Notes under the pieces: model-generated
The model's input: the letters and a program-made list of their open reading frames with translations, nothing else
Databases searched by the model: none
Told to the model about the DNA's origin: nothing
Source of the DNA: a virus
Virus record (IMG/VR): IMGVR_UViG_3300049825_000344
Coordinates: 1-22,421 of that record
Length of the DNA stretch: 22,421 nucleotides
Reading direction: 5' to 3' (one strand)
Part shown: positions 4,229 through 6,642 of the stretch, one piece after another
Layout of the letters: each line of letters starts with the position of its first letter
Position numbering within the stretch: the first letter of the stretch is position 1
Made by a program: the position numbers and the translations under genes

Positions 4229-4272
4229 CCCGGTAGGGTCGCACCCGCTGGCAGACCGGGAAAAGTCTGCCA
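4229..4272 (+). promoter_or_regulatory. competing RNA hairpins before the nuclease gene
   Basis: The 47-base gap holds three short stems. TGGCAGAC (4249-4256) pairs perfectly with GTCTGCCA (4265-4272). GGGT (4236-4239) pairs with ACCC (4243-4246). CCCGGT (4229-4234) can pair with ACCGGG (4255-4260), which overlaps the first stem, so the outer and downstream stems exclude each other. No run of T follows, so this is unlikely to be a simple terminator. The arrangement could set translation of the nuclease gene, but no ligand or switch class is recognised. Confidence 0.5.
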
Positions 4273-4299
4273 ACCATGATTATTGAAGGTATTGACGCT

Positions 4300-5515: not shown

Positions 5516-5568
5516 TTGCGCAAGAGAATTGATCCTCACTGTTGCGCGATCCTGAATATGGTAGGATC
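5516..5568 (+). promoter_or_regulatory. duplicated TTGCGC/GATCCT elements and hairpin before the SSB gene
   Basis: TTGCGC occurs at 5516-5521 and 5542-5547, and GATCCT at 5531-5536 and 5548-5553. AGGATC at 5563-5568 can pair with either GATCCT copy; the nearer pairing leaves a nine-base loop and ends just before the AAGGAA ribosome site at 5571-5576. This could be an operator, an RNA hairpin controlling the highly used single-strand-binding protein, or chance in a short gap. A clear sigma-70 promoter is not visible. Confidence 0.35.
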
Positions 5569-5582
5569 ATAAGGAAATTGAA

Positions 5583-6305
5583 ATGTCTGACATGATTAAG
5601 TATACTTTGGTAAAGCCCGCACGGTTGATTTTTTCGTCTATTGCGGTCAAATCTGCCCCGCGTGTTCAGGGAGCCGTCCCTAAGTTTTCGGGGACATTCG
5701 GAATTGAGAAAGAGGATTTTGACGCTCTCGTCAAGCTTATGGTCCAGTCGATCACAAGCGAGCTAGGTTCATTTTCCAATCCGGCAGATTATTACCTCGC
5801 CTGTCTTTCAGGAGCAACCGCTGCAAAGAGAGCAATCCAGAAAGGTGAATTTGATGCTCAAGGCAAGACCTCTGACGAAGCTTTCAAAATCAAAGATAAG
5901 GCGGAAAAGCGCGCTGCGCTCTATACGCCTTATGCAGGTATCTTGACTGCATCCTCTCAGTTCGATGTTGAGCTTGCTCGCCTTGAAGGAGGTAAAATTC
6001 TCGATATTGCGAATGAGGAACTTGCCCGTGCACAAGCTCAAAAAGACCTGTTTTATGCAGGCGCTTACGTTGTTCCTGCCGTGGCTTTGAAAGCTTATCG
6101 CCGGAAAAAAGTTGACGATAAGGACGGCGTGACTGCATTCCTGCAAAACTGTCTGTATATTCGGAAGGGTGAACGGTTGGGAACTATGGGAGGTCCAGCT
6201 AACAATGAAGTGTTTGGCGGATATGCTGGATATAGCGACCATGACCCTCTTGCGAATGCGCCAGACGGTGTTGAAAGCCGAGAGGAAGCATTCTCTGACT
6301 TCTGA
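5583..6305 (+). CDS. DUF2815 single-stranded DNA-binding protein
   Basis: The 240-residue protein begins with the DUF2815 pattern: an N-terminal strand (L-V-K-P-A-R-L-I-F-S-S-I) followed by P-K-F-S-G-T-F-G-I-E-K. It later has a K-A-Y-R-R-K-K and G-V-T-A-F-L-Q-N core, then V-F-G-G-Y-A-G-Y. DUF2815 proteins are OB-fold single-strand binders of the T7 gp2.5 type. The C-terminal residues 231-240 are acidic and end in Phe (E-S-R-E-E-A-F-S-D-F), as in gp2.5 and bacterial SSB, where such tails bind partners. AAGGAA lies seven bases before the ATG. It coats single strands made by the nuclease and feeds the polymerase; the order nuclease, SSB, polymerase supports this. Confidence 0.88.
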   Translation: MSDMIKYTLVKPARLIFSSIAVKSAPRVQGAVPKFSGTFGIEKEDFDALVKLMVQSITSELGSFSNPADYYLACLSGATAAKRAIQKGEFDAQGKTSDEAFKIKDKAEKRAALYTPYAGILTASSQFDVELARLEGGKILDIANEELARAQAQKDLFYAGAYVVPAVALKAYRRKKVDDKDGVTAFLQNCLYIRKGERLGTMGGPANNEVFGGYAGYSDHDPLANAPDGVESREEAFSDF

Positions 6306-6336
6306 TTTGTTGCTCCCTAGGCACGGAGTAAAACTG

Positions 6337-6447
6337 CCTCAATTTAGTACATCCCTGCAACTGGTAATTAGGGTGATACCCCGGTCGTTAATTCGCGACT
6401 TTATCCTAGGTCTATGCAGAAATTTGCAGGGATGTACTAAATTGAGG
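6337..6447 (+). ncRNA. 24-bp perfect inverted repeat with structured loop (unknown element)
   Basis: The left arm 6337-6360 (CCTCAATTTAG... ) is the exact reverse complement of the right arm 6424-6447 over all 24 bases. The 63-base loop holds two further stems: GGGT/ACCC at 6371-6381 with a three-base loop, and GGTCG/CGACT at 6383-6400. The right arm ends in GAGG, which is the Shine-Dalgarno core for the ATG at 6457, so in RNA the site would be buried in the stem. Possible roles are a translation or attenuation control, an RNase III processing site, a structured RNA, or a DNA cruciform acting in replication. I do not recognise any known RNA family. The inverted repeat itself is certain; its role is not. 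Confidence 0.6.
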
Positions 6448-6456
6448 AGATGAAAT

Positions 6457-6642
6457 ATGCCAGAAGAACAATTTATAATTTTCTATTTTATGATAGGTTT
6501 TATGCTGTGGTTAGTTGCGATTATGTATATTAAAGAAACTGAAATAGACGAGTTATTAATTTCCCTAGTAGCTGCGATAATCGGATGGCCTATTGTTTTA
6601 GTCATAGGTGCGGTTTCATATATCAATGAGCTTAGGGAATAA
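6457..6642 (+). CDS. small two-helix membrane protein
   Basis: This 61-residue peptide has two hydrophobic helices, about residues 6-24 and 34-54, joined by a short acidic turn (K-E-T-E-I-D-E). It ends with a charged tail I-N-E-L-R-E. No lipobox or cleavable signal is seen, so it should sit in the inner membrane as a hairpin. GAGGAG lies seven bases before the ATG, but its first four bases are in the right arm of the 24-bp inverted repeat. Translation may therefore need opening or cutting of that stem. The role is unknown; superinfection exclusion, host membrane modification or an early lysis effector are all possible, and nothing in the sequence chooses between them. Confidence 0.65.
   Translation: MPEEQFIIFYFMIGFMLWLVAIMYIKETEIDELLISLVAAIIGWPIVLVIGAVSYINELRE

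Follow-up and report, generated by a model that had tools for sequence, protein, structure and literature searches.

Downstream of the gene for its single-stranded DNA-binding protein (SSB), an IMG/VR virus carries a perfect 24-bp stem which closes a 63-nt loop and terminates within the Shine–Dalgarno (SD) sequence of the next open reading frame. By computation we could show this stem, its overlap with the SD, the energies needed to open the SD, the conservation of a hairpin at the same slot in related phages and the covariation of the RNA that usually occupies the slot. We suggest that the element works as an intercistronic mRNA hairpin, which would conceal the SD of the following gene, has a length sufficient for RNase III and would be cut in such a way that the SD becomes free. 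For this whole package taken together we see an even chance of being correct.

The window, by which we mean the whole stretch of DNA that was analyzed, is a virus record of 22,421 bases. On the plus strand it encodes an SNF2 helicase, an unknown ORF of 241 amino acids, a DUF2800 exonuclease, an Enc34-type SSB (5583–6305, plus strand; PF10991; phrog_112, Gp2.5-like) and a hydrophobic ORF of 61 amino acids, the putative membrane peptide (6457–6642, plus strand), followed by a MazG-like protein, a family A DNA polymerase, and a RuvC-like resolvase. The stem is intercistronic within this co-directional operon and, as originally predicted, lies between the SSB gene, whose stop codon is at 6303–6305, and the membrane-peptide ORF starting at 6457. 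The latter has a GC content of 32% compared to 47% for the window and yielded no family in Pfam, PHROGs, and PADLOC, and a search for relatives of it found none. Given its low GC content and the lack of detectable relatives it probably represents a small, recent cargo gene; an ORF without relatives may also be no real gene. When named phages were compared by DNA and by SSB protein, no relative was found. At the left side of the window, the region 958–1377 encodes 23-residue (69-bp) repeats of the pattern DGxxHRxDGPAxxxADGSxxWY, and a related repeat ORF at position 3–257 is truncated by the left end. A small ORF at position 539–961 matches mad1 of PADLOC (1.4e-10) as well as phrog_11671; it reads like a MerR-type DNA-binding protein.

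The repeat search reproduced the perfect inverted repeat that had been noticed in the sequence: the left arm (6337–6360) and the right arm (6424–6447) are complementary at 24 of 24 positions and enclose 63 nt (6361–6423, all on the plus strand). The stem starts 31 nt past the SSB stop and ends 9 nt upstream of the ATG at 6457. Directly 3′ of the stop there is in addition a small hairpin, TTGCTCC/GGAGTAA (6310–6331, plus strand), and a small hairpin at this position is also present in many relatives. The loop of the long stem folds into weak internal stems. Two such stems had been predicted; small stems are indeed found but their number differs, with three in the fold of the minus strand and one compound stem in the minimum free energy structure. 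The RNA fold of the region 6306–6460 has an energy of −65.9 kcal/mol compared to a mean of −35.5 kcal/mol for shuffled sequences (z = −8.0, none of 200 shuffles being equal), and the minus strand as well as DNA parameters give similar z-scores. We rejected a switch that would pair the base of the left arm with AATTAGGG of the loop, as it is incompatible with the upper stem and such a match is likely to arise by chance.

In 316 kb comprising the window and related loci the 24-bp stem is the longest perfect repeat with a span of up to about 260 nt, the next one having 15 bp; in a wider set of 1.6 Mb a few perfect repeats reach 16–22 bp. The stem is rare, yet it is not unique. A distant DUF2800 phage (L210, 3576–3701) has a perfect stem of 21 bp with a loop of 84 nt which follows a gene stop and lies 16 nt upstream of the DUF2800 start codon, and on a further contig (L121, 1161–1264) a perfect stem of 20 bp with a loop of 64 nt comes directly after a long ORF. 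Both lie in intercistronic gaps among replication genes and have the architecture and the place of the stem in the window with unrelated sequence, and the likeness between the loops of the three stems is not significant (about 0.08). Long near-perfect repeats in L262, one beside a tRNA-like sequence and one a coding repeat, and in L146 are different things. As the record is a metagenomic contig, the stem could be suspected to be an artefact of assembly or amplification. This we regard as hardly credible at all, since the repeat is internal, is placed neatly between a stop codon and an SD, leaves the synteny intact, and has similar counterparts on other contigs.

Searches for a known element at this position gave little. 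Rfam contained no family for the stem, neither at the gathering threshold nor at E-values up to 5, and the matches to MIR6140 and rliD are far under the gathering score and reflect the long stem only. A search for tRNA and tmRNA found none, and an exact 18-mer of the arm had no match in IMG/VR. The signals of a promoter and terminator scan were at the level of shuffled sequences. Intrinsic terminators have a short GC-rich stem with a loop of 3–8 nt followed by a T run. The terminator scan detected none on the plus strand at the 24-bp stem, whose right arm is followed by AGATGAAATATG and not by a T run, just as had been stated beforehand, and 24 bp with a 63-nt loop are far from terminator geometry. 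The exclusion of a simple terminator thus stands for the window, yet several relatives have a terminator-like GC hairpin with a T run in the corresponding slot and in this respect resemble intrinsic terminators.

The SD of the 61-aa ORF, GAGGAG (6444–6449, plus strand), has four of its six bases paired in the stem, as the first four bases of the left arm, CCTC, are complementary to the core GAGG. In the predicted fold the probability of GAGG being unpaired is 0.0 when the stem is present. Opening the SD costs 11.3 kcal/mol with the stem, 1.4 kcal/mol without the left arm, and 1.4–1.7 kcal/mol after a cut in the stem. The 24-bp stem is thus predicted to sequester the SD, whose bases pair in the computed fold and become accessible when their partner is absent. 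The stems of the relatives and of L210 end farther from the start codon, mostly 17–26 nt, and thus outside the SD, so that SD hiding is not what the slot does in general. An alternative mode of pairing the downstream SD may exist in L012 (6748–6830) and L015 (1450–1530), where the slot hairpin has a loop (CUCUCCCA) with complementarity to the following gene's SD, comprising UGGGAGA in L012 and being partial in L015.

The position and the length of the stem give a hint how it might act. The transcript of the early replication operon would fold into the 24-bp duplex 3′ of the SSB gene, and the duplex would set the message of SSB apart from that of the genes behind it and might block 3′–5′ decay into SSB. 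With four SD bases paired, the 61-aa membrane peptide would be poorly translated from the intact transcript. The minimum target of RNase III is 22 nt (PMC5371410), which the stem with its 24 of 24 base pairs exceeds, and the perfect duplex is thus a predicted substrate of this enzyme. A cut in the stem would take off the left arm, whereupon the SD would become accessible, and in this way processing may set the ratio of SSB to membrane peptide. Transcription through the element, cutting by RNase III, the effect on translation and the stabilization of the mRNA are all steps that we infer.

Relatives were collected by three SSB-based and one polymerase-based scan of IMG/VR and by one scan of prokaryotic genomes, which yielded 40 distinct relatives whose slot could be read and whose SSB proteins have about 51–77% identity. 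The gene order SNF2 – X – DUF2800 – SSB – polymerase is constant across them. Downstream of SSB the organization varies: the polymerase may follow at once, or small genes covering up to about 2 kb may intervene. The 61-aa ORF is not common to the relatives, and the same holds for MazG. A script that examined the sequence from the SSB stop up to the next start identified stems of 8 bp or more in 34 of the 40. Five of the remaining six show a hairpin on inspection, the start having been miscalled or the stem being slightly shorter, and only L049 is an exception. From one lineage to another the stems are unrelated in sequence; they include G–U pairs and in about half of the cases are followed by a T-rich stretch. 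Compared to windows of the same contig the median fraction that folds as well as the slot hairpin is 0.07, several single cases being unremarkable. None of the 40 relatives has the 24-bp stem or its sequence, so that covariation lends no support to this particular stem. Homologous phages with unrelated sequence or no stem at this place had been named as a refutation; the sequences are indeed unrelated, but a hairpin is retained at this place.

These comparisons support that selection acts on an RNA hairpin at the slot and not on a DNA sequence. As the hairpin persists although the sequences differ, and as the pseudoknot described below covaries, the slot appears to act at the RNA level as punctuation between genes. 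Of the possibilities offered by the original prediction, a phage RNA element is accordingly the best reading, given the unrelated sequences, the G–U pairs, and the compensatory changes of the slot hairpins. An element working at the DNA level, that is a cruciform, a single-strand replication origin or paired protein-binding sites, would fit the location in a replication module and the nearly equal folding of both strands. We consider it very improbable: in the relatives the slot has unrelated arms, G–U pairs and a pseudoknot topology, which are features of RNA, the arm sequence is not conserved, and the record holds no second copy of the arms. In particular the proposed DNA cruciform for replication finds no support in these features, the pseudoknot topology being sensible in single-stranded RNA only.

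About half of the relatives have in the slot the sequence (C/U)CCG – C – UGGCAGAC – CGG(G/A) – short loop – GUCUGCCA, which forms an H-type pseudoknot with helices of 4–5 bp and 8 bp. In an alignment of 18 sequences 97% of the cells are paired and seven of the 13 pairs have changes on both sides. None of 500 shuffles reaches any of the five measures used, and in slid versions of the alignment the paired fraction falls to 25–38%. By eye, L031, L032, and L047 have the same topology with another sequence. Variants with an additional hairpin in the third loop were seen in L012 (4341–4386) and L079 (1070–1128). The relatives often hold two copies, one after the unknown ORF before DUF2800 and one after SSB (e.g., 1654–1688 and 3755–3793 in L028). 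In the window, the covariance model R1 detects an intact copy before the DUF2800 exonuclease (4241–4275, plus strand, 44 bits) and no match at 6306–6456, even with the filters off. Thus, the window lacks the copy behind SSB and has the long stem at this place instead.

The pseudoknot is found beyond these relatives. A 14-mer of its core matched at least 120 IMG/VR stretches, and in 80 of the at least 120 core-matched loci the covariance model finds 72 places (E up to 0.01), some loci having two to four copies. In an alignment of 82 rows, nine pairs keep double changes among the matches listed; the loci L098–L177 were chosen by the core sequence, so that their independent evidence comprises the outer pairs and the variable loop only. 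Carriers are, for example, L099, L100, L101, L110, L130, L134, L152, and L167 besides dozens of other IMG/VR loci, and among the matches listed the environmental copies are mostly placed 2–20 nt past a stop codon. One copy in L100 is immediately upstream of a tRNA gene. Rfam has no match to the pseudoknot, and a collection of named phages gave matches at chance level only. Its likeliest role is that of a terminator-like or 3′-protecting element, and the pseudoknot family is a more novel by-product of this study than the long stem. Tentatively, and with more doubt than confidence, we put forward that this phage group and dozens of further environmental phage contigs share a pseudoknot outside Rfam which punctuates operons after stop codons, and that in the window the post-SSB copy has been swapped for a hairpin which fulfils the same task and in addition gates the SD, the modules being interchangeable.

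The same data bear on a simpler reading, namely that the 24-bp stem is a plain 3′-end stabilizer or insulator of the SSB mRNA, acting by protection from 3′–5′ exonucleases or by slowing transcription, and that the SD overlap and the RNase III length are incidental. The slot is tied to the upstream gene while the downstream genes vary. Among the matches listed, 52 of 81 distinct instances of the replaced pseudoknot start no more than 20 nt past the stop codon that ends a long ORF, compared to 8% of random positions, and 40 of 81, about half, have TTTT at the 3′ end. The terminator-like slot hairpins of several relatives point in the same direction. Nevertheless, the stem of the window has no T run, is three times longer than any slot stem of the relatives, and reaches the SD in the window only. 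We therefore rate a plain stabilizer as unlikely, though it deserves to be taken seriously.

Perfect pairing exceeds what an RNA function needs, and a recent origin could be conceived. The stem might be the product of a recent template switch or inversion, or a tiny insertion, without any selected function. The neighboring strand would have been copied in reverse, which would generate perfect arms and perhaps destroy an older pseudoknot that became inverted into the loop. Such an accident would explain why the arms are perfectly identical and why the stem is lineage-specific. Moreover, the reverse complement of the loop holds AGACC(TA)GGATAAAGTC, which is similar to the pseudoknot core of the relatives; four of 500 shuffles of the loop and ten of 500 shuffles of the whole region give an equal match. 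This weakly suggests that the loop is an inverted remnant of the pseudoknot. However, the core match is weak when one allows for the two strands and the several queries that were used, the stem belonging to it would be disrupted, and the covariance model finds nothing at the slot. An insertion element or MITE was rejected, as inspection by eye revealed no target-site duplication and the record contains no further copy. In addition, the position of the element coincides exactly with a slot in which selection otherwise maintains a structure. A recent accident is in our view improbable, and we prefer the SD-gating, RNase III-processed hairpin.

A further RNA structure is found at the other end of the SSB gene. 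Its leader (5516–5576, plus strand) contains a stem formed by GCGCAA (5518–5523) and TTGCGC (5542–5547), and the loop sequence TGATCCT (5530–5536) pairs with AGGATCA (5563–5569) directly 5′ of the SSB SD AAGGAA, which gives a pseudoknot. Many relatives have a leader hairpin whose loop pairs with the bases directly 5′ of the SSB SD, using different partners such as GTCCC/GGGAC, GCCCC/GGGGC, TTCTCCC/GGGGGAA, and TGCTC/GAGCA. The native partners pair better than swapped ones (0 of 300 permutations), a statistic that ignores the relatedness of the sequences. The leader pseudoknot looks like a translational operator of the T4 gene 32 type.

Several known systems can be compared with the elements of the window. 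The RNase III sites in the early transcripts of phage T7 recur between several genes; their stems are imperfect, and an internal loop surrounds the position of the cut. The window shares with them a long intercistronic hairpin in a phage early operon, the absence of a T run, and the expected separation of messages. On the contrary, the window has one perfect stem with the SD within it, and cleavage by RNase III is a prediction. For gene N of phage lambda, control by RNase III consists in a 5′ hairpin which sequesters the SD and is freed by processing. Similarly, the stem of the window would hide or hinder initiation and a cut is predicted to relieve this, but the downstream protein is a putative small membrane peptide that matched no family. 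In the operator of T4 gene 32, which codes for the SSB of this phage, SSB nucleates on a pseudoknot close to the SD (PMC535899). The window resembles this system in having an RNA structure adjoining the SSB gene and a leader pseudoknot directly 5′ of the SD; in T4, however, the operator is upstream of gene 32, whereas the long simple stem of the window is downstream of SSB.

Long intercistronic hairpins in phage operons are thus already known, and what is new here is the perfect pairing, the overlap with the SD, and the replacement of a conserved pseudoknot. The comparison exposes a pseudoknot outside Rfam, supported by covariation, that environmental phages repeatedly carry behind stop codons, as well as a pseudoknot similar to that of T4 gene 32 in the SSB leader. 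The post-SSB position is a fixed intercistronic slot in which phages keep an RNA structure and replace its sequence. This slot makes it testable how early replication operons derive different protein levels from one transcript.
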